From Styela clava (lineage: Eukaryota; Chordata; Ascidiacea; Stolidobranchia; Styelidae), in assembly GCF_964204865.1 (NCBI RefSeq), contig NC_135255.1:7283135-7347134 (forward strand): a DNA stretch of 64,000 nucleotides, read 5' to 3'. Below are positions 2,866 through 30,611 of the stretch, piece after piece (position 1 is the stretch's first letter; each line of letters starts with the position of its first letter). The notes beneath the pieces are model-generated. The model was given only the letters and a program-made list of their open reading frames with translations. It did not search any database and was not told the origin of the DNA. The position numbers and the translations under genes are program-made.

Positions 2866-4211
2866 ATGGCCATGGAAACATATACTGAAGATCAAGATTA
2901 CAAAAACTGCTCAGTCAAAAACAGAAAATCAGAAAACAAAGCTTTCAAAGCGACAAAAACCTGGAACACATTTGTCAAATCGTTTGGGTCACAAATATGT
3001 TGCTGCCGCAATCGGAAAAATCTTAAGATTTACAAAGAATGCTTCACCGGTTCATCAGCTGTTACCACAATGCATAAAATCCTGAAAGAAATGGGAAACT
3101 ATGAGAATGTGTCAAGATCTCAGGTAAGAAATGCTGAACATGTGTTGTACACAATTTTAGTGTAAATTGATTTTATCGAAAATGCACGAGGTATTTGAAA
3201 TATTGCTGCAATTCCAACTGAAGTATTTTAATATTTCATTCCTAAAGGGTATAAAACTGCTACAGAAATTCATGGATCAACATATTATAGAAGATATTAA
3301 TGGAAAATGGTTATCGGAAGAATTCAAAGATTCGGGAAAATTATATAGGTATAATTAGTCCATATTTTTTTTATTCCGAATGTCATATGTTATAAAGTAT
3401 GAGTTTTGCATTGTGATATATAATGCCTTTCATCTTTGATTAAATTGCTTACGATATACAGTGATACCTCGGTAATCAAAAGACTCAACACTCGAACGAT
3501 TGGGTGGTCGCCCAGGAAATTAGAGTCGAAATTTATCACTGTTCCTTATGGCAAAAAAGTTCCGGTACTCGCACAAATCGATAGTCGAACACCATTCCCG
3601 AGCGAATTATGTTCGACTACCGAGGTATGACTCAGATGCTAATATATATATTTTAAACATATTGTTTTTTTTTTATAGATTGGCCGAACGCGAATGTTCG
3701 AATGCCAGCAAGAAATGGATCGAAAATCGATCACAGAATCGAAGTAATTCAATTCATGCATTAGTTGGAAGAAAAGGTGTGTAACCTACGTGATGGATAT
3801 ATATCTAGTTGTCGCGAATAGTTTTAGTTTGAAATTCAAGGATAAAACAAAATGTTATTTGAGACAGTTGTAATATTTGATATTTATATATAATAGTAAC
3901 TGACAAATCATAAAAGAATATCTCATTCAGCCTATTTAAAAATTGAAATTTAAGTTTAGCTTAAAATAGTACTTTTTGTATGTTGCTGTTATTACGCCGA
4001 ATAAAATGAGTTCTTTTCGCTTTTAGTTTCCGTCCAGATAGACAAAACTCAAGCACATTTTCGAAAAAGTGCAAAAAGATTTTCAACCTCTTCTGTAGCA
4101 CGATGGAATGGACGAATAAATTTGAAGAATATAAACACAGGGCAAAAAACATTATCTTTGAACTCAAAGCAGTCCAACGCAACAGTTCTTTTATCTTTTT
4201 CAGCAGAATGA
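2866..4211 (+). CDS. DEP-domain mini-gene, copy 1 (DEPDC1-like DEP domain)
   Basis: Spliced model: exons 2866-3123, 3248-3348, 3679-3776 and 4027-4211, all with GT-AG borders and matching phases, giving 213 aa with a stop at 4209-4211. Residues ~30-125 form a DEP domain: the pattern KATKTWNTFVKSF, then KIYKECFTGSSAV, then LLQKFMDQHIIEDINGKW and KLYR closely follows the DEP domain of DEPDC1. DEP domains usually mediate membrane or GPCR/G-protein-linked targeting. The RhoGAP-like part of DEPDC1 is absent. Exon 3 and especially exon 4 are ab initio: residues past about 175 differ between copies, so the true 3' end is uncertain. Start chosen at the first ATG of ATGGCCATGG. It may be a functional small gene or an amplified gene fragment; the frame is open in all four exons. 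Confidence 0.6.
3459..3634. mobile_element. pogo/Tc1-like MITE in DEP intron 2, copy 1
   Basis: About 175 bp with imperfect terminal inverted repeats: CAGTGATACCTCGGTAATC at the left and ATGTTCGACTACCGAGGTAT near the right, next to a TA dinucleotide. Ends beginning CAGTGATACCTC are typical of pogo/Tigger-type elements. It has no coding capacity. The same element is in the same place in units 1, 2 and 4, so it inserted before the array was amplified. Confidence 0.65.
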
Positions 4212-6277: not shown

Positions 6278-7151
6278 CTCCAAATTAATTTCTCACTGAC
6301 GCGATTTTTTGAATTCTTCAAGCAGCTTTAAATCAATCCCGATTCTGACATCATGTTTTTTTGTGGGTAAACACACAAGTGTTCATGATTCTTGAGTAAA
6401 TTATGGATATTTACATAACCAACTGTACAGAAAAAATGGGATTCTTATAATTTTTTAATGTATTTTCATTGTTGGTGTGTTTAAAAAACTATCCGCTTTG
6501 TCTTTACACTCTGACTTGTCACAGCAGATTCATCTCTGATCTACACGTTGCGTTTTCCGAGATCATCACTAGTTCAAATATTTTTCAAAGTTTTAATTAG
6601 CGAGCGTAATATAGTGAGGTATATAATACAATTGGATCAAGCATCTGCATCAAATTGGTATATTGCATTGTGAATACACATCACAGAAATTACTTTTGAC
6701 GATGAGAAAATAATTAGTTAATTGAAGTGCAATATTTTATTGGGAACATATGCAAAATCATTGACGAATGTTGTGTGAAGATTACATAGAACTGACGTCC
6801 ATTGTGTTGATTAATTAGATAGATGATCTCTATACCAACAACAGAAATATGATGCATAATTTTGAATTTACTTAATTATTATTATTGTAATTGTACATAT
6901 TGGACTATATCTTCTGATAAATTTTCGTTGAATTTCATTTCGCTGACGTTGTTTTGCTCATTAGTAATATTACCTGAGTATGACATGAGCCGTTTAGTGG
7001 CGGAGGCAATATTTAAATGCGCTGGTATTGCAGCACTCGGGATGGAGATCAAAACATTTTGAGGGAATCACATCTTATTCTTGTTTTTGAAGCTGAAACT
7101 TTCACAAACTTGGTAAAGGTAAAAGTTTTTTTTACCATCTACATCGTTCAA

Positions 7152-8409
7152 ATGGCCATGGAAACATATACTGAAGATCAAGATTACAAAAACTGCTCAG
7201 TCAAAAACAGAAAATCAGAAAACAAAGCTTTCAAAGCGACAAAAACCTGGAACACATTTGTCAAATCGTTTGAGTTACAAATATGTTGCTGCCGCAATCG
7301 GAAAAATCTTAAGATTTACAAAGAATGCTTCACCGGTTCATCAGCTGTTACCACAATGCATAAAATCCTGAAAGAAATGGGAAACTATGAGAATGTGTCA
7401 AGATCTCAGGTAAGAAATGCTGAACATGTGTTGTACACAATTTTAGTGTAAATTGATTTTATCGAAAATGCACGAGGTATTTGAAATATTGCTGCAATTC
7501 CAACTAAAGTATTTTTATATTTCATTCCTAAAGGGTATAAAACTGCTACAGAATTTCATGGATCAACATATTATAGAAGATATTAATGAAAAATGGTTAT
7601 CGGAAGAATTCAAAGATTCGGGAAAATTATATAGGTATAATTAGTCCATATTTTTTTTATTCCGAATGTCATTTGTTAAAGTATGAGTTTTGCATTGTGA
7701 TATATAATTCCTTTCATCTTTGATTAAATTGCTTACGATATACAGTGATATCTCGGTAATCAAAAGACTCAACACTCGAACGATTGGGTGGTCGCCCAGG
7801 AAATTAGAGTCAAAATTTATCATTGTTCCTTATGGCAAAAAAGTTCCGGTACTTGCACAAATCGATAGTCGAACACCATTCCCGAGCGAATTATGTTCGA
7901 CTACCGAGGTATGACTCAGATGCTAATATATATATTTTAAACATATTGTTTTTTTTTATAGATTGGCCGAACGCGAATGTTCGAATGCCAGCAAGAAATG
8001 GATCGAAAATCGATCACAGAATCGAAGTAATTCAATTCATGCATTAGTTGGAAGAAAAGGTGTGTAACCTACATGATGGATATATATCTAGTTGTCGCGA
8101 CTAGTTTTAGTTTGAAATTCAAGGATAAAACAAAATGTTATTTGAGACAGTTGTAATATTTGATATTTATATATAATAGTAACTGACAAATTATAAAAGA
8201 ATATCTCATTCAGCCTATTTAAAAATTGAAATTTAAGTTTAGTCTAAAATAGTACTTTTTGTATGTTGCTGTTATTACGCCGAATAAATGAGTTCTTTTC
8301 GCTTTTAGTTTCCGTCCAGATAGACAAAACTCAAGCACATTTTCGAAAAAGTGCAAAAAGATTTTCAATCTCTTCTGTAGCACGATGGAATGGACGAATA
8401 AAGATTTGA
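7152..8409 (+). CDS. DEP-domain mini-gene, copy 2
   Basis: Exons 7152-7409, 7534-7634, 7962-8059 and 8309-8409; 185 aa. The DEP domain is intact with the same splice sites as copy 1. Exon 1 differs from copy 1 by two bases, and both change the amino acid (G to E and S to L in KSFGSQICCC); exon 2 has K to N and G to E. A two-base insertion near 8402 shifts the tail to an earlier stop (8407-8409). It is unknown whether it is expressed. Confidence 0.58.
7743..7918. mobile_element. pogo/Tc1-like MITE in DEP intron 2, copy 2
   Basis: Same element and position as in unit 1, nearly identical in sequence; carried along by the tandem duplication rather than inserted independently. Confidence 0.65.
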
Positions 8410-10631: not shown

Positions 10632-11447
10632 TGTTTTTTGTGGGTAAACACACAAGTGTTCATGATTCTTGAGTAAATTATGGATATTTACATAACCAAC
10701 TGTACAGAAAAAATGGGGTTCTTATAATTTTTTAATGTATTTTCATTGTTGGTGTGTTTAAAAAACTATCCGCTTTGTCTTTACACTCTGACTTGTCACA
10801 GCAGATTCATCTCTGATCTACACGTTGCTTTTTCCGAGATCATCACTAGTTCGAATATTTTTCCAAGTTTTAATTAGCGAGCGTAATATAGTGAGGTATA
10901 TAATACAATTGGATCAAGCATCTGCATCAAATTGGTATATTGCATTGTGAATACACATCACAGAAATTACTTTTGACGATGAGAAAATAATTAGTTAATT
11001 AAAGTGCAATATTTTATTGGGAACATATGCAAAATCATTGACGAATGTTGTGTGAAGATTACATAGAACTGACGTCCATTGTGTTGATTATTTAGATAGA
11101 TGAGCTCTAAACCAACAACAGAAATATGATGCATAATTTTGAATTTCTCCTTCAATGAGTGCTGTACTTAATTATTATTATTCCAATTGTACATATTGGA
11201 CTATGTCTTCTGATAAATTTTTGTTGAATTTCATTTCGCTGACGTTGTTTTGCTCATTAGTAATATTACCTGCGTATGACATGAGTCGTTTAGTGGCGGA
11301 GGCAATATTTAAATGCGCTGGTATTGCAGCACTCGGGATAGAGATCAAAACATTTTGAGGGAATCACATCTTATTCTTGTTTTTGAAGCTGAAACTTTCA
11401 CAAACTTGGTAAAGGTAAAAGGTTTTTCTACCATCTACATCGTTCAA

Positions 11448-11645
11448 ATGGCCATGGAAACATATACTGAAGATCAAGATTACAAAAACTGCTCAGTCAA
11501 AAACAGAAAATCAGAAAACAAAGCTTTCGAAGCGACAAAAACCTGGAACACATTTGTCAAATCGTTTGAGTCACAAATATGTTGCTGCCGCAATCGGAAA
11601 AATCTTAAGATTTACAATGAATGCTTCACCGGTTCATCAGCTGTT
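11448..11645 (+). pseudogene. DEP-domain mini-gene, copy 3, truncated
   Basis: Only the first ~66 codons of exon 1 remain, up to FTGSSAV; the array junction then runs the frame into repeat DNA, where it reads on to 11,768 without homology. It has lost the second half of the DEP fold and all introns. Base changes relative to copy 1 are again amino-acid changing (for example FKATK to FEATK, YKE to YNE). Product, if any, would not be a folded DEP domain. Confidence 0.7.
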
Positions 11646-13029
11646 TGCCATGTATTTATTGATTGTTTGAATCAACTATTCGTAAATTATAACTTTTTCA
11701 TTCATTTTGTTTTTTTTTGGCTCATCAATGAATTGAATAATTTTTCCATGTATTTATTGATTGTATGAATCAACTATTCGTAAATTATAGAGTGTAATTG
11801 GAAAAGAACGAAAGAAAGTTAAATGCTAGAAAATAGAATCTGTCCGAAAATGATTTAGTAAAAGTTTGATTTCGCCAAAGGATGATCTTTGCAAAAAACT
11901 TGAAGTTAACTTAGACTTAATAGTAGATTGCTGAGATGATATTTGAGTAAGTTACGATTATTAAACCAGTTAGCAGATTTCGGATCAGCTCGCAACATCG
12001 ACATTCACATTCAGGTATAAAATTATATCATCAAACAAATTTTCATTTATCAAATTTCACAAGCGATCTCTAAGCCTTACTTCATACAAAGCAACCGAAC
12101 AGCCATAGGAACCTCGCTCTTAAGAAAGTCAGCTTCAATCCCAGTACATTTGCACCCACCGACATGTTCACCACGTACATATCCACCCATGTACATTTAC
12201 ATGAGTTTGTTGTCTTGAAACAAATTGAAACGTTGTTTTGAATTATTGCACAGTATCAAGTTGTCAGAAATCAACATGTAACAAACTAATGCATAAATAA
12301 TCTTCAATGAGGAAAGTTTGTTGTCTTGGCAAGACTCTCGAGTGGAGAGAGTTCAGGATCTTTGGGAAACCTAATGAGCAAATGAAGAACGAGTGTTATA
12401 TTTAATACGTCAGTTAGTATCTCAATATTGATAAAAAAATATTATTTTATCAACCTTGAATTAATAATAAAGCTTTCCGGAACCGACAAATTTTCGTTCA
12501 TCCACTTCACCCAATGAATTTTTGAACCTGGTTAGAGCATATATTAGAATTGGATAATAATAATAAAAAAGGTATTAAAATTATAAATTTTGACGTGGAA
12601 TATCATAATTCCTATTTTCTTGCATTGCATTTTTGAGTTGAAAGGATCGACAAGATTATTCCAAACCAATATGCTTGAAAATTTTTGTTTTGTTTTCAAA
12701 GTTTGATGACATTGTCGTATACCAAAAACCGAATCACCGAATCACATAAAGCCCACAAAAACTGTTGTTGTTATTCTTTTCAAGTACTGAGCCAATTGCT
12801 TTTTTAAAGATTAAAGATTGCTGTCGCTAAAAGACTATCACTTTTATTTCTAATATTCCTGTTGGCACTATAAAATTCGTTTTGATTTTGAAGTTTTGTA
12901 TGATAACGTCATCAAAATCAGACATTCCGCACCGCGCGGTGGTCCAGCGATTGCATTATAGTCGGGAAATTTTCTGATAAGGTAGAATAACGCAGGTTAC
13001 TGTAAATTATTTCAGACTACCTCCTTTTA

Positions 13030-13519: not shown

Positions 13520-14273
13520 CTCCAAATTAATTTCTCACTGACGCAATTTTTTTGAATTCTCCAAGCAGCTTTAAATCAATCCCGATTCTGACACCATGTT
13601 TTTTTTTGTAGGTAAACAAACAACTGTTCATGATTCTTGAGTTAATTATGGATATGTACATAACCAACTGTACAGGAGAAATGGAGTTCTTGTAAATTTT
13701 TGATGTATTTTTATTGTTGGTGTGTTTAAAAAACTATCCGCCTTTCTTTACCCTCTGACTTGTCACAGCAGATTCATCTTCGATCAACACGTTGCTTTTT
13801 CCGAGATCATTACTAGTTCGAATATTTTTCCAAGTTTTAACTTAGCGAGCATACTATAGTGAGGTATATAATACAATTAGATCAAGACTCTGCATCAAAT
13901 TGGTATATTGCATTGTGAATACACGTCACAGAAATTACTGTTGACCATGAAAATTTTTTTACTTAATTAAAGTGCAATATTTATTGGGAACATATGCAAA
14001 ATCATTGACGAATGTTGCTGTTTGAAGATTACATAGAACTGACGTCCATTGTATCGATTAATTAGATAGATAAGCTCTATACCAACAACAGAAATATAAT
14101 GCATAATTTAGAATTACTCCTTCAATGAGTGCTGTACTTAATTATTATTATTCCAATTGTACATATTGGACTATATCTTCTGATAAATTTTCGTTGAATT
14201 TCATTTCGCTGACGTTGTTTTGCTCATTAGTAATATTACCTGCGTATGACATGAGCCGTTTAGTGGAGCAGGC

Positions 14274-14285
14274 GATATATAAATG
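14274..14285 (+). promoter_or_regulatory. Candidate TATA box of the DEP mini-genes
   Basis: GATATATAAATG lies about 145 bp upstream of the copy 4 start codon. The equivalent site in copies 1-3 (2721-2735 in copy 1) reads CAATATTTAAATG. It sits about 30 bp before a conserved CACTCGGGATAG-like stretch that could be the transcription start. Position and sequence only; no direct evidence of use. Confidence 0.3.
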
Positions 14286-14428
14286 CGCTTGCATTGCACA
14301 CTCGGGATAGAGATCAAAACATTTTGAGGGAATCACATCTTATTCTTGTTTTTGAAACTGAAACTTTCACAAACTTGGTAAAACAAAAGTTAAAAGGTTT
14401 TTCAACTTACCTCATCGTTCATTTGACC

Positions 14429-15697
14429 ATGGAAACATATACTGAAGATCAAGATTACAAAAACTGCTCAGTCAAAAACAGAAAATCAGAAAACAAAGCT
14501 TTCAAAGCTACAAAAACCTGGAACACATTTGTCCAATCGTTTGAGTCACAAATATGTTGCTGCCGCAATCGGAAAAATCTTAAGATTTACAAAGAATGCT
14601 TCACCGGTTCATCAGCTGTTACCACAATGCATAAAATCCTGAAAAAAATGGAAAACTATGAGAATGTGTCAAGATCTCAGGTAAGAAGTGTTTTTGTACA
14701 ACATGTGTTGTAGTCAATTTTAGTGTAAATTGACTTCATCTAAAATGCATGAGGTGTTTGAAATATTGCAATTTTAACTAAAGTATTTTTATATTTCATT
14801 CCTAAAGAGTATAAAACTGCTACAGAAATTCGTGGACCAACATATTATAGAAGATATCAATGGCAAATGGTTATCGGAAGAATTCAAAGATTCGGGAAAA
14901 TTATATAGGTATAATTAGTCCATATTTTTTTATTCCGAAAGTCATATATTAAAGTATGAATTTTGCATTGTGATATATAATTCCCTTCATCTTTGATTAA
15001 ATTGCTCACGATATACAGTGATACTTCTGTAATCGAAATACTCAACACTCGAACGATTCGGTAGTTGACCAAAAAATTAGAGTCAAAAATTACCACAGTT
15101 TCCACTTTTTTTATGACAAAAAAGTTTCGGTACTCGCACAAATCGTAGTCGAACACCATTCCCGAACTAATTATGTTCGACTACAGAGGTATGACCCAGA
15201 TGCTGATATATATTTTTTAAATATATTGTTGTTTTCTTATAGATTGGCCAAATGCAAATGTTTGAATGCCAGCAAGAAATGGATCGAAAATCGATCACAG
15301 AATCGAAATAATTCAATTCATGCATTAGTTGGAAGAAAAGGTGTGTAACCTACATGATGTATATATATTTAGTTGTCGCGATTAGTTTTAGTTGAAAATT
15401 CAAGGATAGAACAAAATGTTATTTGAGACATTTGGAATATTTGATATTTATAATAGTAACTGACAAATCAGAACAGAATATCTCATTCAGCATAAAATAG
15501 TACTTTTTGTATGTTGCTGTTATTACGCCGATTAAAATGAGTTCTTTTCGTTTCTAGTTTCCGTCCAGATAGACGAAACTCAAGCACATTTTCGAAAAAC
15601 TGCAAAAAGGTTTTCAACCTCTTCCTGTAGCATGATGGAATGGACGAATAAAAAGATTTTAAAAATAATACCACGGGGCAAAAAACATTATCTGTGA
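14429..15697 (+). CDS. DEP-domain mini-gene, copy 4 (diverged)
   Basis: Exons 14429-14680, 14808-14908, 15243-15340 and 15558-15697; 196 aa. All four GT-AG borders and phases match copies 1 and 2 despite clear divergence of the surrounding DNA. The upstream ATG of the other copies has been lost, so the start is the second ATG (METYTEDQDYK). The DEP domain is uninterrupted (IKLLQKFVDQHIIEDINGK), while the C-terminal tail is shifted by one extra base in exon 4. Survival of the frame in the oldest copy is the best argument that the gene is or was functional. Confidence 0.55.
15016..15198. mobile_element. pogo/Tc1-like MITE in DEP intron 2, copy 4
   Basis: Diverged version of the same insertion, with decayed ends (CAGTGATACTTCTG at the left) and a short expansion in the middle. 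Its presence here dates the insertion before the oldest duplication seen. Confidence 0.55.
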
Positions 15698-17572: not shown

Positions 17573-17639
17573 CTTTCTTTCTAACTGCACAGTCGAAGTT
17601 GACCGTCACAAAATAACGAGTAGTGTTCACATCCAAACG

Positions 17640-17828
17640 ATAGGGTTGGTAACGTGCCATACATATACTGCCAAGAATATCCATATAGCGCCAACTGAAT
17701 ATCCATATAGCGCCAACTGAATATCCATATAGCGCCAACTAAATATCCATATACAGCCAACTAATATCCAAATACAGCCATTTTGGTGATATCCATATAC
17801 AGCCAACTAATATCCAAATACAGCCAAA
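17640..17828 (+). repeat. Left terminal inverted repeat made of ~22 bp tandem repeats
   Basis: After GGGTTGGTAACGTG come repeats of the form ATATCCATATAGCGCCAACT, first with GCGCC and then with ACAGCC, split by ATTTTGGTGATATCC. The reverse complement of 30376-30566 matches it almost base for base. Such arrays may serve as multiple transposase-binding sites, as in Foldback and CACTA elements (inference). Confidence 0.85.
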
Positions 17829-17852
17829 TCAATAAATAAATAAAGTCATCAA

Positions 17853-18110
17853 GATAGGATATGATTTACATATTTATGTCGGGAGAGAGGAAAGCCGATT
17901 GTTGTTTTCGGAAGCATCCACATCATGGTGGGGGGGAAGCCATAACCGACAAGTGGCTACTTGAACCACCCTATGACAGCAACGAGTTCAGCAATCCTTT
18001 CGCACATAACCATCCCCGCATGGGATTCGAAACTACGAACCCACGCAGAGTAATCTGAGGTGCGGTGGCGAGCGTATTCCTAACGCTTAATACGATGAGC
18101 CACACCGCCG
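17853..18110 (-). mobile_element. tRNA-derived SINE, copy 1
   Basis: On the - strand it starts GGCGGTGTGGCTCATCG (A-box region) and has a B-box-like TTTCGAATCCC about 55 bp on, followed by a family-specific body and an AT-rich tail near TAAATATGTAAATC. It shares the family seen at 36.3, 49.2/50.5, 51.1, 53.3 and 56.6 kb. It lies just inside the left TIR of the large transposon, so it inserted after that element did. Confidence 0.75.
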
Positions 18111-18480
18111 AAACTACCAGCATTAATATCATAATATATACCCCAAAACAGGTGGTCGATCATTGCACAAGAAATATGCTGGCTGAAAATCTCTTTTCAG
18201 TGAACTATTCCTTGGCGAATGGCGATAAACTGTCAAACAACTAATCGAATTACCGCTTGGTGGAAAATAAAATACTGCCAACGTGCGTAGTACTTGAGAA
18301 ATATCCAAAGGCTCCAAAATATGATGTCATAATACCCCACATCTTGAATAGCGTGATAATTGTGCTCGCTGAAATACTTTTTTCGGTGAACTATTCTTTG
18401 GTTACTGGCAATAAACTGCATAGAAATTAATCAAATTAACGTTTGGCGGAAACTATCATTGCACACCTTGCAGTTTATTT
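18111..18480 (+). repeat. Subterminal module of the large transposon, two copies
   Basis: Two ~180 bp copies of one module: a variant of AAATATCCAAAGGCTCC, a variant of ATGATGTCATAATACCCCA, then TGAACTATTCTTTGG and TTAACGTTTGGCGGAAACTA. Further copies or parts lie at about 20,050-20,150, 20,870-20,960 and 21,660-21,890. A single inverted copy lies in the right arm near 29,970-30,051. Confidence 0.6.
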
Positions 18481-18639
18481 AAGTTAAGACGAATCGTCAT
18501 TGTATTTAGTATGATGAGACCACTACCACTAATACCATGTGCTAAAGTTCTATTCAGCTATATATGTTTAAAACACTTTCCTCTAATAATATTTTTTCTA
18601 TGCGACAAAATTTCTATTGAACAACCTTGAATTTGCGAG

Positions 18640-18862
18640 ATTTTGTGTCTAGTAGAGGGTTAATAATTATTCCCAATTAATTAATTTTTATTTCAACGTT
18701 TTTTTTGTGTTATTTTCCAACAGAAGACCAAAACCACTATTATAGCAAGAATGGTTTCTAGTAGATGGTTAATAATTATTCCTAATTATTTGACTTTTAT
18801 TTCAACGTTTTCTTGTGTTATTTTCCAACAGAAGACCAAAACCACTATTATAGCAAGAATGG
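18640..18862 (+). repeat. ~105 bp tandem duplication with exon-like segments
   Basis: Two adjacent copies run from CTAGTAGAGGGTTAATAATT to GCAAGAATGGTT. Each has a pyrimidine tract, then CAG, then AAGACCAAAACCACTATTA and ATGGT, so each looks like a splice acceptor followed by a short exon ending in ATG before a GT. A separate ~50 bp duplication (TTCTATTCAGCTATATATG) occurs at about 18,545 and 19,119. Confidence 0.55.
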
Positions 18863-19419
18863 TTACTCCAAAATTCATGATTGTATTTACAGAATTTTCA
18901 AGTTCAAGGCTTCAATTGGCAATTTTGATGATGTCACATCTCTAATTATCACTTCAAAGGCCCCCTCAATGCAAAAAATGTTATTTTTTCGACGGAAATG
19001 CACGTAGAAAGACGTAAACATTCTAATGCGCGACGTTGCGTGTGAAAATTACCATTAATTTTACATTTTTTTCACATTTAAAAATCCCCCAAGCGACTTT
19101 TTAATACCGTATGCTAAAAGTTCTATTCAGCTATATATGCTTAAAACACTTTCCTCTAATAAAATGTGTAAAGGACGATTTTCAAGTCGATGATATATAT
19201 AGAATTGGCATTATCAGCGAATCTGGAGTCCTTTTTTTCGTGAAATATACAACTCTACTATAGAAAATTAACTGTAAAAGACCATTATTCCCTTTTAGAG
19301 TTGGGACTAGGCATGAGTTATACTGTGCATATGCCATCCGACATAGTATGGTTTTAACTTATTCAACTGATTTTTTTTTGTTTCCTTTTTTTCTCTCTTG
19401 TGTGTTAATTTATTTTCAG

Positions 19420-19455
19420 GGCGTGTTACTTTAGCTCAATTTCGTTAACAAAATG
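19420..19455 (+). other. Candidate 36 nt 5' exon ending in a start codon (three copies)
   Basis: TTTATTTTCAG is followed by GGCGTGTTACTTTAGCTCAA, then TTTCGTTAACAAA and ATG at the 3' border, then GTAAATT (GTAAGTT in copies 2 and 3 at 20258-20293 and 21064-21099). It could supply the first codon of the transposase mRNA by splicing to a downstream exon, but the intermediate exons were not identified and the phase to 24194 does not match directly. Confidence 0.3.
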
Positions 19456-19476
19456 GTAAATTTATATTTTTTTAAA

Positions 19477-19520
19477 GGCTGTGACTGACTCGATGACCTA
19501 ACGGTCGCATCGTCACAGCC
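19477..19520. other. 44 nt perfect-ended hairpin, copy 1 of 3
   Basis: GGCTGTGAC and GTCACAGCC pair as a 9 bp outer stem; an inner CGATGACC/GGTCGCATCG pairing with a TAAC loop extends it. Identical copies lie at 20315-20358 and 21121-21164. It sits about 22 bp after the exon-like ATG|GTAA. It could be an RNA structure, a protein-binding palindrome or a relic of another small element. Confidence 0.6.
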
Positions 19521-19739
19521 TCGTCTCAAAGCCTTGAATAAAATTTTTAAATGTTGTATGTAAACTTTTTTGACATTGTTGACGAAATAAAATACTATAC
19601 TACCGTTACGCGTACAGAAACTCGAAAATAACTTCCGATTGAAATATGAGAAATGACTTGTAAAAAGCGTAAAATATAAGGAATAAAATATCATAATATG
19701 AGCATCATTAAACACCAGACATAACACTGATGGTGAGTA

Positions 19740-20050
19740 GTATTTCAGAAATATTCAATAGGCCCCAACTCAGCTCTTCAGAAATATCCAATAGGCCCCA
19801 ACTCAGTTTTTCAGAAATATCCAATAGGCCCCAACTCAGTTTTTCAGAAATATCCAATAGGCCCCAACCCAGTTCTTCAGAAATATCCAATAGGCCCCAA
19901 CTCAGTTTTTCAGAAATATCCAATAGGCGCCAACTCAGTTCTTCAGAAATATCCAATAGGCCCCAACTCAGTTTTTCAGAAATATCCAATAGGCGCCAAC
20001 TCAGTTCTTCAGAAATATCCAACAGGCCCCAACTCAGTTCTTCAAAACCA
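19740..20050. repeat. 33 bp minisatellite, block 1 (~9 repeats)
   Basis: The unit is AGAAATATCCAATAGGCCCC plus AACTCAGTTCTTC, with GGCCCC/GGCGCC and TTCTTC/TTTTTC variants. Since 33 is a multiple of 3, both strands stay open (11-residue repeats), but there is no protein-like evidence. The core ATCCAATAGGCGCCAACT resembles the ~22 bp repeat of the TIRs, so both may share an origin. Other blocks: about 20,578-20,857 (8 repeats) and 21,390-21,640 (about 7, irregular). Confidence 0.85.
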
Positions 20051-21730
20051 TGACTCAGAAATATCCAATAGGCGCCAATCTATGATGTCATAATACCCCA
20101 CAACATCTGATCGTTAATAATAGGCCTACAAGAAATGTGATGACTGAAAATCTCATATACTGTGCATATGCCATCCGACATAGTATAGTTTTAACTTATT
20201 CAATTGATTTTTTTTGTGTTTCCTTTTTTTCTCTCTTGTGTGTTAATTTATTTTCAGGGCGTGTTACTTTAGCTCAATTTCGTTAACAAAATGGTAAGTT
20301 TATATTTTTTTAAAGGCTGTGACTGACTCGATGACCTAACGGTCGCATCGTCACAGCCTCGTCTCAAAGCCTTGAAAATAATTTTTAAATGTTGTATGTA
20401 AACTTTTTTGACATTGTTGACGAAATAAAATACTATACTACCGTTACGGGTACAGAAACTCGAAAATAACTTCCGATTGAAATATGAGAAATGACTTGTA
20501 AAAAGCGTAAAATATAAAGAATAAAATATCATAATATGAGCATCATTAAACACCAGACATAACACTGATGGTGAGTAGTATTTCAGAAATATCCAATAGG
20601 CCCCAACTCAGCTCTTCAGAAATATCCAATAGGCCCCAACTCAGTTTTTCAGAAATATCCAATAGGCCCCAACTCAGTTTTTCAGAAATATCCAATAGGC
20701 CCCAACCCAGTTCTTCAGAAATATCCAATAGGCCCCAACTCAGTTTTTCAGAAATATCCAATAGGCGCCAACTCAGTTCTTCAGAAATATCCAATAGGCC
20801 CCAACTCAGTTTTTCAGAAATATCCAACAGGCCCCAACTCAGTTCTTCAAAACCATGACTCAGAAATATCCAATAGGCGCCAATCTATGATGTCATAAAA
20901 CCCCCACAACATCTGATCGTTAATAATAGGCCTACAAGAAATGTGATGACTGAAAATCTCATATACTGTGCATATGCCATCCGACATAGTATGGTTTTAA
21001 CTTATTCAATTGATTTTTTTTGTGTTTCCTTTTTTTCTCTCTTGTGTGTTAATTTATTTTCAGGGCGTGTTACTTTAGCTCAATTTTGTTAACAAAATGG
21101 TAAGTTTATATTTTTTTAAAGGCTGTGACTGACTCGATGACCTAACGGTCGCATCGTCACAGCCTCGTCTCAAAGCCTTGAAAATAATTTTTAAATGTTG
21201 TATGTAAACTTTTTTGACATTGTTATAGAAATAAAATACTACTACTACTACCGTTACGCGTACAAGAACTCGAAAATAACTTCCGATTGAAATATGAGAA
21301 ATGACTTGTAAAAAGCGTAAAATATAAGGAATAAAATATCATAATATGAGCATCATTAAACACCAGACATAAAACTGATGGTGAGTAGTATTTCAGAAAT
21401 ATCCAATAGGCCCCAACTCAGCTCTTCAGAAATATCCAATAGGCCCCGACTCAGTTCTTCAAAACCATGACTCAGAAATATCCAATAGGCCCCAACTCAG
21501 TTTTTCAGAAATATTCAATAGGCCCCAACTCAGTTTTCCAGAAATATCCAATAGGCGCAACTCAGTTCTTCAGAAATATCCAATAGGCGCCAACTCAGTT
21601 CTTCAGAAATATCCAATAGGCCCCAACTCAGTTCTTCAAAACCATGACTCAGAAATATCCAATAGGCGCCAATCTATGATGTCATAATACCCCACAACAG
21701 CTGATCGTTACTAATACAAGAAATGTGATG

Positions 21731-22637
21731 ACTGAAAATCGTATTTGAAAAAGCTATTTTTCGGCTATTGGCAATAATCTGTCTATAAAATAATCAATCA
21801 ACGTTTGGTGGAATATATGAAACCTAAAACTGCCGGTGCGCGTAGTTCCTGAAAAAAAAAATCTAATAGGCCCCATTCTATGATGTCCAATCTATGATTG
21901 GACAGTGTTCAACAATGAAAGAATAAAATCTTAATACTAGAATATTCAAAGGCTTAATGTAGTCGAAACTGTAAATCGTGTATTTGAATACATCTATGAC
22001 GCAATAAATTAATGTGAATAGGCGACATAGATAGGATTCGAGGAAACAGCAGGCTAGGAACACGAGTGTGGACTTAAGAATCATTACTTTGAAAATAGCA
22101 TATCGATTGAATGTTACTGATTCCTTGGATATAACAAATACGAAGATTGGACTTCATCGTGTACTGTTCTACTTTATTCTGAATTGAAGTGAGTATTATG
22201 CTTAAGATGCTCATACCATAATCTGCAGCAGCGTTAGTGACAATTGTAGTTCCTCGGTCAGTTAAACTATGCTTGTGGCCCATATGTCAAGTTACTTACT
22301 TCAAAAGGAATAAAAGAAAAACAAACATATCTAATAGAATACACAGATAAATTCAAATTAGTATTACACCGTTAGGAATTATTACAACACTAAAAACCAC
22401 CAAGGTATTCATGCGTATTTATATTGTGTAGGCTAAGTCTTATAGGGATCTCACTCGAAACAAGTACAGTCCAGATTATACTCATTAGGAATCAAAGGCC
22501 CTAAGAGCCCGCCAACTATAGTTTTTGAAGTCAATAACAATTCTATTTCAATATTAAAAAGGTTCAACATTAAAATGTTATCTAGAAATACTATCAACCT
22601 ACTAAAAAGTTCAATGCTTTTTCCTACAAAAATTATA
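21731..22637. other. Transposon left arm, no gene recognised
   Basis: Contains one more partial subterminal module (to about 21,890). The rest is AT-rich DNA with only short unconvincing ORFs. Confidence 0.4.
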
Positions 22638-22879
22638 GGTGTACTCCCGAAGTACTGAGCCAAGATGGCGGACACCGGAACGTAGTATATGTTCCAGGTT
22701 AGGGGTTATGCCATAATTTCAGAGACAAATACTACGGGAGTCAATTGGTTATTCCCCGAAATCGCAATAGAACTAAAATGAGAGGAAATTGAAATAAAAT
22801 TATTGCCTAAACCCTAACTTGGTACACATGCTACGTTCCGGTGTCCGCCATCTTGGTTCGCATACTTCGAGAGTACCGA
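22638..22879. mobile_element. ~240 bp MITE with ~65 bp inverted repeats
   Basis: The left arm GTACTCCCGAAGTACTGAGC, CAAGATGGCGGACACCGGAA and CGTAG is repeated inverted at 22816-22879, with GTACTCTCGAAGTATGCGAA at the outer end. The centre is about 110 bp of unique AT-rich sequence with no ORF. It is nested in the 12.9 kb transposon; no clear target duplication was read. Confidence 0.75.
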
Positions 22880-22970
22880 GTACCCTGGATGACATAGGCA
22901 TTTTTAACAAGCGAGATAACTGGTACGACAATAATTGCACAATCATGCCTGGTTTTTAACAGTCATTACT

Positions 22971-23130
22971 TATCGATCTTAAGATCGGTAAGTATGTTGA
23001 TAGGTATTTGCATGTGCATGCATCATATCTCGTACCAGAAGCCTATTGATTTTGGGTTAATTATGTCCAATAATTAGCAGGTTATTAATTAATTAATTAT
23101 CGCTCTTCAGTCTCCGACCGATATTCTCGT
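22971..23130 (+). repeat. Dispersed repeat family, copy A
   Basis: Shares TATCGATCTT, CATCATATCTCG, ACCAGAAGCCTATTGATTTT, AATAATTAGC and CTCCGACC-ATATTCTCGTT with copies at 23291-23508 and 60891-61194. This copy lacks the central GTCTGTTTG / GCGATATCTCACGA part. Confidence 0.65.
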
Positions 23131-23290
23131 TGCAAATACTAATACCAAAAGGAATCTTCAAATTAATGTGGCAATATTATTTTGTTTGAATAATGACATA
23201 ATTTCTGGGATGCACACTTCGGAAAAGTTTGTTAAGTAGGCCTATTGGCAATAGTAAACTGCGATCCAATACATATTTCTTATTACTTAT

Positions 23291-23508
23291 AATCTTAAGG
23301 TATTTGTCTGTTTGTTTGTCTGTTAGATGAACGCGATATCTCACGAAGGCGAGGTTGAATCTGCTCCAAATTTTGCATGTGCATTCATCATATCTCGGAC
23401 CAGAAGCCTATTAATTTTGGATGAATTATGTCGAATAATTAGCGAGTTAATAATTAATTAGCGATCTTCGATCGATAAGTCTTTGGTCTCCGACCAATAT
23501 TCTCGTTT
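23291..23508 (+). repeat. Dispersed repeat family, copy B
   Basis: Fuller copy with GTTTGTCTGTTAG, GCGATATCTCACGAAGGCGA, ACCAGAAGCCTATTAATTTT and CGATCGATAAGTC...CTCCGACCAATATTCTCGTT. It lies 160 bp after copy A in the same orientation. Non-coding. Confidence 0.65.
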
Positions 23509-24013
23509 GGAAATCTTATCGATAAATATTGTGGTTATTTTCAACATTGAGAATGCCAGATCGAGTTTGATAAATTTCAATTTTAAAACCAAACTTTTCA
23601 GGTACTAATACATGAATTTTTAGGAAAATAAATTCTCACAAAAGTATAGGTTTGAATTCAGTCGTTTATCTCCAAAAACCAACAAAGTTAGAGAAGTTGC
23701 CTTACCTCAAAAAAAATTGATATCGAATCTTACTCGTTCAACAAGTATGTATGTCAGTCTTCTTAATCAAGATAATAGATTTCGCGCCGCGGTTCATCGC
23801 TTCCTACATGTGAACTAATATATTCCTATTTTAAGGTTGTTTGAATATGAATCCGGGTTGAAGATTGAAGATGTCAAAAACTAGCTACGCTAAAAGGTTA
23901 TTTGGTATACTTTGCTTCCGTGATATGCTGACGTGTGTAATTATTCAAAATTCAACTTGTTGGTGTAATTTATATCGTCAAAGTCTAAAATATTCCGAAT
24001 CGAAATATTCATA

Positions 24014-24053
<40 letters not shown>

Positions 24054-24193
24054 CATTCTTCTAACTGAACAATGTAGATTTGATTTAATCTCAACCTAAA
24101 TTCAAACAAATATGCTAATATCACTGCTTCTAAGAAACAAGATTATACGCGACCATGATTTAATTATTTACAACAATTATTTTCATCATTCAG
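23509..24193. other. Region upstream of the transposase, no gene recognised
   Basis: AT-rich DNA with an (AT)n microsatellite at about 24,011-24,053. A good splice acceptor, TTATTTTCATCATTCAG, ends at 24,193 and leads into the transposase frame; an in-frame TGA lies just upstream (about 24,156). The 5' exons of the gene were not found. Confidence 0.45.
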
Positions 24194-27100
24194 AACAACT
24201 CCTTGGTTTTTTGCAAATGGTCCAGATAAAGATTCAAAAGAGGATGACACTTACGCGATTCGATTCCGACTGTGTGAAGAACCTGATTGTAGTAGGAAAC
24301 CCAATCATCATCTACACTGTTTGTTATGCAAAGCTGCAAGTGCTGGCCATGCGCATTGCAAAAGACACTTTGAGGAAGTACATGCGAGACAATCCGTCAT
24401 ATATCAGCATTATAAATGTCTGAAATGCAAACTAAATCACGGACATTCGGGGTATTTTAGACCTCATTATCATTGTCTGATATGTAACAGAACAATAATA
24501 AGGGAAAAACAGCTACATGTTCACATGGAAAATCACACGGTAAATAAAACTGGTGGCGTTAGAATGAATACTAAACCAAAAATAGAGCTGAACGACGTCT
24601 GCGAGTATACACCAGATGACCCCCCCTTAGGTAATAATGATTCCATTGAGATGAATCATAAAACAAACGTCGCCTGTGATAATGGATCCATTGAAATGAA
24701 TATCAAATCAAATACAGAGTTTAATGATGCTTGCGATTATGCACCAGAGAAAAAATCAAGGCGTGTTCTTGAAAAAATGATCACTTGTCCAGTGTGCAGG
24801 AAGGAAATGTGCTCCAGAAGTTTGCCTCGTCATTATCGAAATATTCATAACAAAGAAATAGAAAATGTCGTGTATTGCGTCGACAAAATAAGGGGTTTGT
24901 ATATGGTTTGAAGAAGCTCCAAAGGAGGAGTCTTTTATCCCATACACATAAAGAAAAATTTATCGAAAATTTCGCTCGATTTTGGTGTTGACTGTGAAGA
25001 CTCTGCCTGCCGAGATTACATGTATATGGCATGGCGCAGTGGCATGACTGGTGCAGAGTGCAGACATTTGAGGCTTGTGGGTGTTGATACAAAGTATCCA
25101 GAATCAGAGACACTAAATGACACTTATTTATCCGAACTATCGATTGACGGCAAATACAAAATTATCAAGCCTACGAATATAGAACAATGTCTAGATCTCA
25201 AAAAGATGGCATTAAATAACAAATCAAAATTGCTTTACGCAATACACGAATCAACAAGATTTATCATGTTTTCGTTATAATTTGGTAGAATTATCCTCAC
25301 AGCCGATATTCAAGAAGGTAACCTGGATTGTAGATGCTGCAAAAGAAAGCATTCGTGCGTACACAAATGTGTTTGTATGTGGTATTTAGTTCAAAATAAC
25401 TTATTTGAAGGTTTTAGAGAACCTAGAATCGAAGATAATGATGAAACAGTCAATGTTCAGCACCAAAACATTTCTCTAAAGTATTATCCACCCATCGATA
25501 CACAAATTCTAGAAAAAATGTGCCAGTATTTAAAAGAACAAAAACGTATACCACATTCGGCCAACAATCGTGCATCCAGAACGATATATACCACGACGTA
25601 TATTCCAGTCGAAGTCAAATGCTTTTATTGTGATTCAGATTTACAAAAACCGATTTTGATCTCAAAACATGCAAAAATATTAACAATGACTGAACTTCTT
25701 GGTGATATATCAACTTATTACAAAGATTGCCCAAAATGCAAAGTGTGTTATCGCTACCAAGAATTTACTGACGGATTGCATAATTTCAATGATATTTTCT
25801 TTATGTCACTTGAAATTTGCTATTTTATCAAAGAGTTTCTCATGCAGCATTTGCCCATTGGAAGTTTTGTTAACGCTCTTTCTTCGCGAATCGGGACTGA
25901 ATTAAATTCTCAAAAAATTGTGAATGCTTTTTTGCATTTTGATAGCCTGAATAGTGACCACTTGTATTTGCTCCACTGTGGTATTTGTGGGTACCATCCC
26001 ACATTAGTAGTCATGGATCGTAACAAAAAAGTAAATTTGTCCAGCCACGTCGTTATCTGTGCCCGATCAATACGACGAAGACAAGGCCGACACTGTCAAT
26101 TGTCAAAGTTTCTGGGAAAATGTGGAGATGAATATGCTTATTCGAGGATTTTATCCGAGGAATATACCAAGTATTCAAATAACTCCTAATTTGCTTGAAT
26201 GGGCGCCATTTATCGGAAAATACACTAGAACAGTGGTGGAAATATTGAATACGGAACATCGGAAGGTTTCAAAGAAAAATGGTTTAATGGAGAGCGATTG
26301 TAGGGATATAACGGAAGAAAGACTTTTAGAAATATTACATAGCTACTCGTCAAAAGACGTATTCAAATTTGGTAAACATTTACTTGGAAATGTCCCAAAG
26401 GGCGGTAAGCTGGACATAATTTTAGCCATACGAGATCGAATTGCAAAAGACCATGAAGAATTTAAAAAAGATTTTTCCAAGCTTTGGGGCTGTTCTGGTG
26501 GCTGGGTTTCTTGTACTTGCGCTCATGGAGTTGTTTATGCTCTTAAGTTTGTTATGCGCGCCGAAAGTCCTCGCGACTTTGTTGATATACTTTTGTCATT
26601 CAAATATCAACCGAATATTGTCATAATTGATATGGCAAATATGGTGGTTGCGCATGGTAACAAACGAAAGATATCTATGTTTTCACCACACGATGGAATG
26701 CTATGTAAGCCAACTCAAGAAAACATAAAAGCTGCCGAAGATAAACGTCTTTCCATCTCAATGCCTTGGATTTTTGAAACAAGTGCACAAAAAGAGCAAT
26801 ATACCAAAGGAGTGCACCCTGTTAGTGGTAAATCTCTTTATATGTGTTTATATGACAGACTGCACGAAAAAAATGTAACCAAGAAAAAAGAAATACTACG
26901 TAGAATAACCTTCGTCCCGGAACTGAATGGTTTCCTTAATACACAAGTTGTGGAACAATTAAATGCAATATTTAATAAGGATAATAGATTTTTAAATCAA
27001 ATGGAGCCGGTGAATCATATTTATCTGTTCCGTTCGATAATTGATAACCATAATCATTTGATAAATATGAAATTGGCCAACAGCTTGGAAAAACACAGCA

Positions 27101-28892
27101 ATAGTGATTTGCATGTGGATAGTCTGGGTAGATGGTATCTCCAGACTGTCGATACATATGAAAGCAGTAAAACGAAAACGAAAATAAAAAAAGATGACAC
27201 ATGCCCATTTAGAAGTGATTACATTACATCAACTCAGGCTGGAATTGAACAAGAATTGCAAAGTGACGGAAAAAAAATTTCGACTGAAGCCAAAGAGGAA
27301 AAAATATTACAAAATGTATGTAGACTGAATAAAGCAAATTTGACACAATCTATGGATAACACAACGGAGGATTTTTCGTTGAAACAAAATAAAAATGACC
27401 TACTTAACGAAGTATATTTGAACGTTGCAGTAGGAAAACAACTTTCACGGGAGAAGACAAACAGTGTATTCGATGTGTCTACAACCGAGCAAGAAAATGA
27501 CGAACTTGAAAACAACACAAAAATGTACTCAACAGACGAAGATAGTCTTTTGGGTGAAACTAAACAAATAGAAAGACCAATTGGAAAACATTTATTAGAT
27601 TTTATTGATAACGGATTTGACCGCACAAAATTCGATAAACCCCCAGAGGATTCTCTGTTGGAAATAAATCCATTTCTTAGCAATCATTGGTTGGAATGTC
27701 TTCATTTGGATTTGATTGACCAACAAATTATACGGGATAAATTATTTTTAAATGATAGAATTATAAATGCAGCAATGGCGTTAATGAAAATAAAATATCG
27801 TCATTTATCAGGACTGAAGGATGTAATAATATCGACAGTGGAAGGATTCCCGATAAAATCCTGTAATACCTTTGTTCAAATAATAAACATCAGAAAAAAT
27901 CATTGGATAACTATTTCGGACCAGTTTTCTGAAAAAATCATGCATCAGTGTATGACAGTCTTTTATCGAGTAATTATCCTGAAATCGTGCAAACAGCAGT
28001 TTGTCAGCTCTGTGGGACCAATAGTGACAGCATCACAATTGAAGTGATGGCTGTTCAACAGCAGCGAGCAAATGAATGTGGGTATTTCGCTATAGCCAAC
28101 GCACTAGCGATTTGCAAAAATGTGGATCCCTGTTTACTGACGTATAGCAATAAATTTAATGAAGGGCTCGAAATGGCATTTATTCAAAATGATATCGACG
28201 TTTTTTGGAGTCACATTAAACCTGAAATACATTCTACCCGAGTACCCAAAACATCCCTTCGGTGGACTTGCAAAGTATTTTGCCATTGCAGGATGCCTTG
28301 TGATGGATCTGGAACATTAGAGTGCACAGTGTGTGAGAAAATGTTTCATAAAAAATGCGAAACTGACGAATTCCGGAACCAGAACTGGAAATGTCGGAAT
28401 TGTCGTAGTTATTCAGTTGAAGATTCAAAAAAAATGGAGGATTTGAAAACTTGGCAAGATGCCATATCATCCCACCATGACACGCCGTTGGTAGTGTCAA
28501 TCTACAATAGCATCCGTGACCTATTTCCATATACAGCCTTGCCCACTGGTGACAACAAAATTGGATGTGTTTCCAACGAAACATATAGCAAATTAAGTGG
28601 CAACAACTCCAAAATTTCGACAGGCGTTACATATAAAATCGACCTGGACAAATTCATAATTTTAATTTTGGAGCCGGATAAGCTTGATATTTCAGTAATC
28701 TTTCACACGATTATGCATGAAATGGCCCATGTCATGGTGCCGGTAACAATAGCCAGCCAAGCACATGCAAAAGAATTCAAAAAATATGGGAGATTCATTC
28801 TAAGGAATGTTAAATTGAATCGAAAACTGTTACCCGAGCAGTGGCAGTGTTTTCCAATAATTGACAAGTTAGTTCTTAATAAGTCAGTATGA
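24194..28892 (+). pseudogene. KDZ/HMGXB3-like transposase with Ulp1, PHD and SprT-like domains (four lesions)
   Basis: One nearly continuous coding path of about 1,565 codons. In order: zinc fingers (CLICNRT...HVHMENH near 24,480; CPVCRKEM...HYRNIH near 24,786), a SWIM finger CRCCKRKHSCVH (25327-25362), cysteine clusters with YRYQEFTDGLHNFND (about 25,620-25,995), the core WGCSGGWVSCTCAHGVVYAL, RAESPRD and IVIIDMANMV (about 26,484-26,650), an Ulp1-like cysteine protease (27,650-28,200; His 27901, Asp 27954, Gln ~28,059, Cys 28077), a PHD finger (28269-28405), and a SprT-like metallopeptidase with HEMAH (28716-28730) and a third His at 28764. This order up to the core matches the KDZ-associated proteins related to HMGXB3. 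Lesions: TGA at 24909 (probably CGA originally), TAA at 25278, an extra base near 26,055 and a missing base near 27,945. The start is set at a splice acceptor; upstream exons are unknown. Confidence 0.75.
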
Positions 28893-30375
28893 TTGTACAT
28901 TTAATATTTTCACATGTAATGAAAATAACTTTCTCGAAATCAAGTTGCAAGTACAAGCTAACAATTAAATTGTGTAATTATCAAATCTTGCCGTCATTTA
29001 TTTCGTAGACTAATGTTGTGTCATTTTAATGCTTTAAATTATTGTCCTATTTCTTTACAGCAGGAGTTTTCGAATGGTGCGACACGGCGCACTGACAAGT
29101 CATTTTAATTTTACGTCGCACAAATATTCAATTCGCAATTCATACTCTACTGACTGTATGAGTATTTAAATAAACTATTACACAACTGTAATCAATAATT
29201 ACTGATAAAATCAAACCACAATGTTACTTTCCGAGTTCACTGTAAGATAAGTTCAATTAAGCTGAAATTTTTGTGAATTTTCCTGAATAACGAATATTCA
29301 GCTTGTACTGAAAACGATACAAACGGTTTATCTAAGAGATATATCATAACATCGTTAAGTCCTCACGTCTAATAAAGCTAACCGAACTCGATTTTCAGTG
29401 TTTCTATCATTTCGTTTTCAAATATTTTCTCACTACTGCGTCGCATGCACGGAGAGTTTTTACAAAAGGCATCTCATCACATTAAGAACCGCTGCTTTAC
29501 GGCATCTAAATTGCTATTCTTTTTATTGGTTAGGATTGTTCCATATATACCCTTTTTCAGCATTACTACCGTTTCATTCTCTTGTCAATGACATTTCCAT
29601 ATTTTTCTGGTCTTTGCATATAATAAATGACATTTTCAGTTGAATCGTTTATTATTTAACTAACTGATAGCTTAACATTTATTTTTAATTTTTTCTTTCT
29701 CTTATGCACTGGCGACTTTATGTCTTATTTTGCACAGGCAAAATGTAAAGGCTTACCGGTGAATGATGTTTATATCATGGAATGATGTTCATATCATTAT
29801 TATATCTACTTTCTGCTGGTTGCAAGTCATTTTTTATATTCCATCAATAGCCGTCGTGGAGTTTCTGTAGGCGTACGCACACTACTTCAATGCGTCAACG
29901 AGTATGGATGGTCTCATCTTATAAACATCATCTGGCGATGCTTTCTCGAATAATCAATATGTAACGTACTGTAATGATAGTTTGCACCAAACTTTAATTT
30001 GACTAGTTCGTTATAAAAATAACCAAAGAATAGTTCACTGATAAGAGATTTTCAATGTCGTCGTTGGCAGCAACACATTTCGCATGTTATCACAATAAAC
30101 TGTTGTGGAGCTCTATCTTGGGGCATTATGGATTGCAAGCTGTAGTATGTAGGCTATTCATGCACCACGAGAGGCTGACATTGTACGCTTCGAACAAATA
30201 ACATGTAGAGACTCACTTGTCACAATAGAGACTAAATGATGCTAATATCACAATAATTTATTACATATATTTTACACATATATAAGTAACTTCGTCAAAA
30301 AGCCGTTTTGGAGTTTCTGAGAGTTATTTTTAAAACCCTTACCCTAACACACTTATTATATTATATGTGTATCTA
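28893..30375. other. Right arm of the transposon, non-coding
   Basis: The 3' flank of the transposase. ATTAAA near 28,965 and AATAAA near 29,170 could be poly(A) signals. An inverted copy of the subterminal module lies at about 29,970-30,051. No convincing ORF otherwise. Confidence 0.5.
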
Positions 30376-30566
30376 ATTGGCTGTATTTGGATATTAGTTG
30401 GCTGTATATGGATATCACCAAAATGGCTGTATTCGGATATTAGTTGGCTGTATATGGATATTTAGTTGGCGCTATATGGATATTTAGTTGGCGCTATATG
30501 GATATTTAGTTGGCGCTATATGGATATTTTTGGCTGTATATGGATATCACGTTACCAACCCCACTC
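30376..30566 (-). repeat. Right terminal inverted repeat made of ~22 bp tandem repeats
   Basis: Inverted partner of 17640-17828: the same order of ACAGCC-type and GCGCC-type repeats and the same terminal CACGTTACCAACCC. Differences are a few substitutions and one repeat-type change next to the tip. Confidence 0.85.
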
Positions 30567-30611
30567 CATCCAAACGGCAGTTAAGCATTGCCAATGTTAA
30601 ATAATATTTAC

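Follow-up and report, generated by a model that had tools for sequence, protein, structure and literature searches.

The transposon copy in the window

The window is the whole stretch of DNA that was analysed, 64,000 nucleotides of the Styela clava genome (G000:C6:7283135-7347134), and 376.6 Mb of this genome were surveyed for related sequences. The window contains a broken copy of a DNA transposon with inverted repeats. The features of this copy are as follows (positions in the window).

17630..17637, no strand: left target-site duplication CATCCAAA, 8 bp
17638..30566, plus strand: whole transposon copy, 12,929 bp, with the termini CGATAGGGTTGGTAACGTG...CACGTTACCAACCCCACTC; the homology with two other copies ends at these bases
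17638..17843, plus strand: left terminal inverted repeat, mostly 22-bp units, 93% identical to the right one over 201 bp
19744..21638, plus strand: three arrays of 33-bp repeats within 0.8-kb direct repeats, a subterminal or promoter-like region
24159..24908, plus strand: transposase frame 1 of 5, Cys/His clusters, C2H2-like fingers
24912..25277, plus strand: transposase frame 2 of 5, open reading frame
25281..26186, plus strand: transposase frame 3 of 5, open reading frame
25596..25916, plus strand: CxC4 cysteine cluster PF18717 (2.7e-9, 37.4 bits against a cut-off of 26.9)
26035..28044 (28047 is also given as the end), plus strand: transposase frame 4 of 5, with the remainder of the core, the linker and the start of Ulp1
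27664..28106, plus strand: Ulp1-like (C48) domain across frames 4 and 5, with His 27901-27903, Asp 27954-27956 and Cys 28077-28079
27933..28892, plus strand: transposase frame 5 of 5 with its stop, 319 aa, end of Ulp1, PHD and SprT-like tail
28260..28409, plus strand: PHD finger, C4HC3, from its ligand residues and PDB profile matches
28413..28889, plus strand: SprT-like tail, with HEMAH at 28716-28730 and the third His at 28764-28766 (20.5 bits; cut-off, 25.6)
30361..30566, minus strand: right terminal inverted repeat, 93% identical to the left one over 201 bp (each about 200 bp)
30567..30574, no strand: right target-site duplication CATCCAAA, 8 bp

Three full copies of this family, referred to as F1 hereafter, were found. 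They have common end bases, and all three are flanked by 8-bp target duplications, each different. One sister copy lies 0.6 Mb from the window copy (C6:7918289-7931169; target duplication AAGTTTTC), and the other is located on C19 (in L011; AGTGATTG). In the longest aligned stretches, the window copy is 98.6% identical to the C6 copy over 7,052 bp and 99.4% identical to the C19 copy over 10,019 bp; because of these identities, F1 is likely to have moved recently. The transposase of the C19 copy lies in three frames (250, 1055 and 319 aa), and the window and C19 copies have the same first break (a stop at window 24909-24911) and the same last frame change (around 27933-28047). These common lesions, found together with different target duplications, suggest that a defective F1 copy was moved by a transposase made elsewhere.

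Some minor features were also observed in and beside the element. In the 0.8-kb repeats, a possible mini-exon occurs at 20258-20299 and 21064-21105: TTTTCAG, about 36 bp ending in AACAAAATG, and GTAAGT. These units, which are repeated with the 33-bp arrays, have an ATG directly 5' of the splice donor, and their phase does not fit an acceptor-like TTCAG near 24193. At 22657-22859, also inside the element, there is an inverted repeat, which may be a small nested element; its 63-bp arms are 87% complementary and separated by 77 bp. To the left of the element, four related open frames (MRWYCSTRD...) are found at 2731-3162, 7017-7448, 11313-11765 and 14264-14710.

The transposase and its Ulp1, PHD and SprT-like domains

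The C6 sister copy carries an unbroken transposase frame of 1588 aa (G000:C6:7924729-7929492; locus L025), in the order fingers, CxC4, putative core, long variable linker, Ulp1, PHD and SprT-like tail. Since this single frame is uninterrupted, the fusion did not arise from two genes being joined by mistake. A preliminary description of the window, made from the sequence alone, had proposed a transposase with Ulp1, PHD and SprT-like domains in one frame; L025 and the occurrence of the same tail in two further families bear this out. In the window itself, 27933-28892 is open and contains the Ulp1 Asp and Cys, the PHD finger and the HEMAH motif, as had been described. The frame shift noted near 27,945 does exist, since the Ulp1 His (27901-27903) is encoded by frame 26035-28047, which overlaps this one. 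The two further families are referred to as F2 (L013, L014, L015 and L020) and F3 (L019).

In the N-terminal part, the fingers are weak by sequence (E 0.0013 against a ZNF484 finger, the best PDB match of the intact copy). With the entire 1588-aa frame as query, hmmscan does not report CxC4; the genome search finds it there with 41 bits. As putative acidic core residues, we assigned by inspection, without a model, Asp 26016-26018 (in frame 3), Asp 26629-26631 and Glu 26953-26955. The core motifs HGVVYA, AESPRD and LNTQV-EQL presumably resemble those of HMGXB3-like proteins. The NCBIfam search gave no family at E up to 0.1 for L025, L013 or L019. F1 and F3 are 42% identical over the N-terminal two thirds (982 aligned residues), and the long linker before Ulp1 differs strongly between them.

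The Ulp1 His, Asp and Cys, which we take to be the catalytic residues as in Ulp1, are kept in all eight aligned sequences, the intact F1 frame included, and the Gln at the catalytic position is kept in seven of them (L015 has Lys). The Pfam C48 cut-off (PF02902; 20.7 bits) is passed by L013 (28.4), L014, L017, L018 and L019; no C48 match was obtained for L025, L015, L016 or the window frames. L025 matches a ULP-protease in the PDB with E 0.013. As for the PHD finger, all eight C4HC3 ligands are present in F1 and in L013 of F2, while L015 is without one Cys, and L019 is damaged in this domain. The Pfam PHD cut-off (PF00628; 24 bits) is passed by L013 (26.3) and L016 (26.6); L014, L015, L017 and L018 are below it, and PF00628 is not listed for F1 or L019. 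The best PDB relative of the PHD frame in the window is ZMYND11 (0.0012), and those of a profile made of F2 and F1 are PHF2 (3e-6), SPP1 and BPTF.

The SprT-like tail of F1 has its metal-site histidines at residues 262, 266 and 278 of the 319-aa frame. The third His is thus located 12 residues after the second His of HExxH; the preliminary description had placed it about 33 residues on, which was incorrect. In F2 and F3 the third His is aligned at +13, and the tails of all three families have HExxH and the third His without exception. The host genome has two SprT-like genes separate from the transposons, which we take from their motifs to be GCNA-like (L032) and SPRTN-like (L033); here the third His is at +13 and +15, respectively.

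Against the Pfam SprT-like model (PF10263; cut-off, 25.6 bits), the 319-aa frame of the window gave 19.3 bits (E = 0.001) and its tail piece gave 20.5 bits (4.4e-4), both below the cut-off. The tails were also compared with the host GCNA-like and SPRTN-like pieces, using as a reference 1000 shuffled tails in which the metal residues were kept. The F1 window tail was not above these shuffles, of which 156 were as good against the GCNA-like piece and 30 against the SPRTN-like piece; the F2 and F3 tails beat them (0 to 3 of 1000 as good). Positions 4-108 of PF10263 are matched by the host GCNA-like domain, whereas in all five transposon tails the N-terminal half of the profile is unmatched, with nothing before position 52 (at most about positions 57-98 of 108 are matched). 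The transposon tails also lack the zinc ribbon that the host gene has. The HH comparison between the tail and the host GCNA-like domain gave a probability of 93.1 over 35 columns. In the PDB profile search with the tail, Spartan (0.36) ranked below multicystatin (0.0052) and ribosomal protein S6 (0.26), and it was the sole named metalloprotease among five matches at E up to 10. Taken alone, the window tail is no more than suggestive of a SprT-like domain, and for this reason the case for such a tail in F1 comes from its relatives.

F1 and F2 are about 28-29% identical over the Ulp1-PHD-SprT alignment. In the tail, they are 26% identical with 35 invariant columns, including the three His and the Glu; when F3 is added, 14 columns are still invariant, and these four residues again belong to them. 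The three domains named in the preliminary description stay under the Pfam cut-offs in the window copy, but in L013 a single 409-aa frame exceeds all of them: C48 (28.4 against 20.7), PHD (26.3 against 24) and SprT-like (25.7 against 25.6, a margin of 0.1 bit). For the other long frames of F2, the SprT-like scores are 25.5 (L014, just under the cut-off) and 27.7 (L015), and three F2 tail pieces give 27.6, 27.6 and 29.5. F3 has CxC4 (31.8 bits), C48 and a SprT piece with 26.3 bits, which lies beyond stops in the PHD-SprT linker. Judged from these matches and alignments, the order Ulp1, PHD and SprT-like occurs in three families of the Styela clava genome, with the F3 tail behind stops.

F2 elements have their own ends. 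Those in L014 are GAGAGGGGTTGGTAGCC and GGCTACCACTACTAATG, and GGGTTGGTA is common to the F2 and F1 ends. Target duplications of 8 bp were found in two of the three F2 copies with both ends visible (L014, CTGTTGCT; L015, GTTTTTTT; none in L013); the left end of L020 lies outside the stretch fetched. In both F1 and F2 elements, the SprT part is inside the terminal repeats. The preliminary description had also considered that related frames might end after Ulp1, with the SprT part belonging to a host gene. This is not so, as shown by the position of the SprT part and by the separate host genes.

When L013 (F2) is compared with F3, the 94-codon SprT core shows the same degree of constraint as Ulp1: pN 0.217 and pS 0.743 for the former, and pN 0.222 and pS 0.742 for the latter. 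The whole SprT stretch is looser (pN 0.304, pS 0.724) and PHD, where L019 is damaged, looser still (pN 0.437, pS 0.716); all these ratios are rough because the synonymous sites are saturated. In the comparison of L013 with L015, dN/dS is 0.41 for SprT and 0.44 for Ulp1; between L013 and L014, it is about 1 with few changes; and between F1 and the decayed L004, it is 0.74 for SprT, 0.31 for Ulp1 and 1.75 for PHD.

Relatives in the genome and among known systems

In the genome search for CxC4, 13 candidates were scored and 4 exceeded the cut-off; all 4 are in SprT-tailed elements, and none is in the F2 copies. The transposase core has 55 matches in the genome. Six of them extend over 345 or more of the 406 core residues, and all six are in tailed elements; the remaining 49 matches are shorter, and a tail was looked for at one of them. 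A divergent core match at C3:2776 kb was considered as a host relative and rejected: it is a degraded F1-like piece (best, 57% identity over 438 aa), F1 residues after 936 have no counterpart in the 5 kb covered, and a homeobox-like frame was noticed nearby by eye. The SprT-like places over the cut-off, which do not include the F1 copies, number 14, i.e., the 2 host genes, 4 F2 elements and 8 F2-related end fragments.

In over 20 scattered fragments, nothing but the SprT end of an F2-like element is left (e.g., L034, L037, L038, L042 and L043; these matches start at residue 327 or later). In an alignment of five SprT-end fragments, an in-frame stop falls at one common position, as though non-autonomous derivatives had kept the 3' end.

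Outside this genome, protein searches gave no relatives at E up to 0.01 (397 candidates) or at 0.001 (2844 and 2468 candidates), and of the pattern stretches in viral contigs (72) and GTDB genomes (104), none was confirmed. These results are no evidence that the elements are confined to this species, because the collections appear poor in animal proteins.

Among known transposons, the element is most like the KDZ (Kyakuja-Dileera-Zisupton) group, above all Dileera and Zisupton: it has CxC4, which is described as 'associated with KDZ transposases', inverted repeats and a large transposase with Cys clusters. The 8-bp target duplications of F1 (3 of 3) and F2 (2 of 3) are like those reported for Zisupton and Dileera in the available part of a KDZ paper (PMC12730594). 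According to the same part, fungal KDZ elements carry another enzyme, a TET/JBP dioxygenase; Ulp1, protease, peptidase and PHD are absent from the text there (PMC12730594). The KDZ transposase domain is PF18758 (PMC9297572, available part), and it was unmatched in the window frames and the family frames; a genome-wide search gave 0 candidates, with the control also being without a match. For this reason, we do not file the element as KDZ. The kinship with KDZ elements suggested in the preliminary description is supported by CxC4 (2.7e-9) and the target duplication length, and not by PF18758; with regard to these two characters, the element may be called KDZ-like.

The Ulp1-PHD part of the tail has precedents. 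Ginger1 transposases have a C-terminal Ulp1, followed by PHD in one family (Ginger1-9_HM), and Ulp1-PHD alignments with Mutator were presented (PMC2836005). Ginger1 and Mutator are thus alike in the C-terminal Ulp1(-PHD), and differ in that their transposases are of the Gypsy-integrase or Mutator type and that no SprT is named in the available part of that paper (PMC2836005). The Gypsy-type integrase core of Ginger1 was not found in our elements: no integrase family is among the Pfam matches of F1 or F3. As for the SprT-like part, Wss1 combines SUMO binding and a related metalloprotease in one protein (PMC4559962, available part). The element shares with Wss1 and SPRTN/GCNA the HExxH and a third His 12-13 residues on; it differs in that its SprT is joined to a transposase and Ulp1 and is without the zinc ribbon and the N-terminal half of the profile. 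No report that joins SprT to a transposon was found among the papers listed in searches of the open-licence literature, a scope to which the founding descriptions of KDZ and Zisupton do not belong.

Possible roles of the tail

The observation made in the preliminary description is confirmed and is stronger than first reported. Its interpretation is partly supported, namely with regard to a transposase that ends in these three domains; the clearing of SUMO-marked complexes that it proposed may be put as follows. We read the element as a cut-and-paste DNA transposon from a KDZ-like lineage with CxC4, whose one large transposase ends in a three-part module: Ulp1 (SUMO isopeptidase-like), PHD (histone reader-like) and the core of a SprT-like zinc metalloprotease. 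The fingers and CxC4 may hold the transposase at the terminal repeats, and the PHD finger may tie it to nucleosomes. Ulp1 would then strip SUMO from the transpososome, or from proteins that the host has placed on it, and the DNA-proximal SprT site would cut the transposase or a host protein stuck on the DNA; the transposon ends would become free for repair, or the element would be freed from repression. This can be likened to host SUMO signalling with Wss1/SPRTN, acting in cis with the transposase. We regard such a clearing of SUMO-marked or stuck protein by the module as the best explanation, and give it about an even chance of being correct; the protease activity, the substrates and the purpose of the tail are inferred.

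A more specific version, which we put forward tentatively and consider possible but doubtful, is that the tail is a transposon-borne, SUMO-directed crosslink protease: Ulp1 would edit SUMO and SprT would shred the protein left on the ends after strand transfer, as a selfish counterpart of Wss1/SPRTN. The available part of a study on DNA-protein crosslinks describes SPRTN and SUMO as acting in two routes; in frog extracts, the replication-coupled route, in which SPRTN is used, was neither stimulated nor inhibited by SUMO on the crosslinks (PMC8441304). Hence the link between Ulp1 and SprT need not be functional. For the Ulp1 and OTU tails of Ginger1, an action on repair factors, either in the course of transposition or afterwards, has been proposed (PMC2836005, available part).

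The tail may instead serve against silencing, removing SUMO and cutting host repressors, either on the element itself or at target sites, for expression and access and not for end processing. A role of SUMO in promoting silent chromatin has been reported for yeast, plants and animals (PMC8131101, available part), and the PHD finger points to chromatin. Moreover, Ulp1-PHD is also carried by L017, whose transposase part has no BLAST similarity to that of F1, which suggests that the use of the tail is not tied to one end-cutting chemistry. The fusion to the transposase, however, fits a local job in the transpososome at least as well, and we consider this alternative serious but unlikely. Both end clearing and fighting silencing are compatible with the tail; we lean to end clearing, since the tail forms part of the transposase and is not made separately. 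Another use of two protease domains would be to cut or trim the transposase itself, for maturation or level control. SPRTN cuts itself, and the linker before Ulp1, being long and strongly different between F1 and F3, would suit such a use; but no cleavage site conserved between families was noticed in the linker by eye, and self-processing seems improbable to us.

The remaining alternatives concern the nature of the tail and not its use. It could be a zinc-binding structural domain that resembles SprT at the metal site without being a protease of the SprT fold, as might be supposed from the match to the zinc-site half of the profile only, from the F1 tail alone not exceeding the shuffles, and from the non-proteases that outrank Spartan in the PDB profile search. 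Nevertheless, the Glu of HExxH, which serves catalysis and not metal binding, is invariant in the F1, F2 and F3 tails, and F2 and F3 pass the Pfam cut-off and exceed the shuffles; we give this possibility a small probability. That the tail is a host SprT gene adjoining the transposon, or joined to it by an assembly or frame error, might be suspected from the broken window copy with its interrupted frame. The unbroken sister frame, the tail in three families, the SprT part inside the terminal repeats, the target duplications and the separate host genes rule out host-gene readthrough or an assembly join, and make any such artefact hardly credible.

If the module works as proposed, a transposon may itself supply the means to remove proteins that have become stuck on DNA or chromatin. 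The element also bears on two unsettled questions, namely how the transposase comes off the DNA once the strands have been transferred, and how transposons withstand silencing based on SUMO; one transposase with deSUMOylase-like and SPRTN-like domains makes both of them testable by two point mutations.

Finally, L016 and L017/L018 belong to other transposon groups and end directly after PHD (in L016, Ulp1 was recognized by alignment only). Their intact frames of 1278 (L016), 1423 (L017) and 1230 aa (L018) end in Ulp1-PHD, and no Pfam match was obtained in the N-terminal parts of L016 and L017. The Ulp1-PHD part of F1 is 32-34% identical to those of L016, L017 and L018, and F1 is 27-31% identical to the F2 and F3 places. 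These values suggest that a Ulp1-PHD cassette has been exchanged among unrelated transposases, and the elements with a SprT-like domain suggest that the cassette is able to gain further enzymes.
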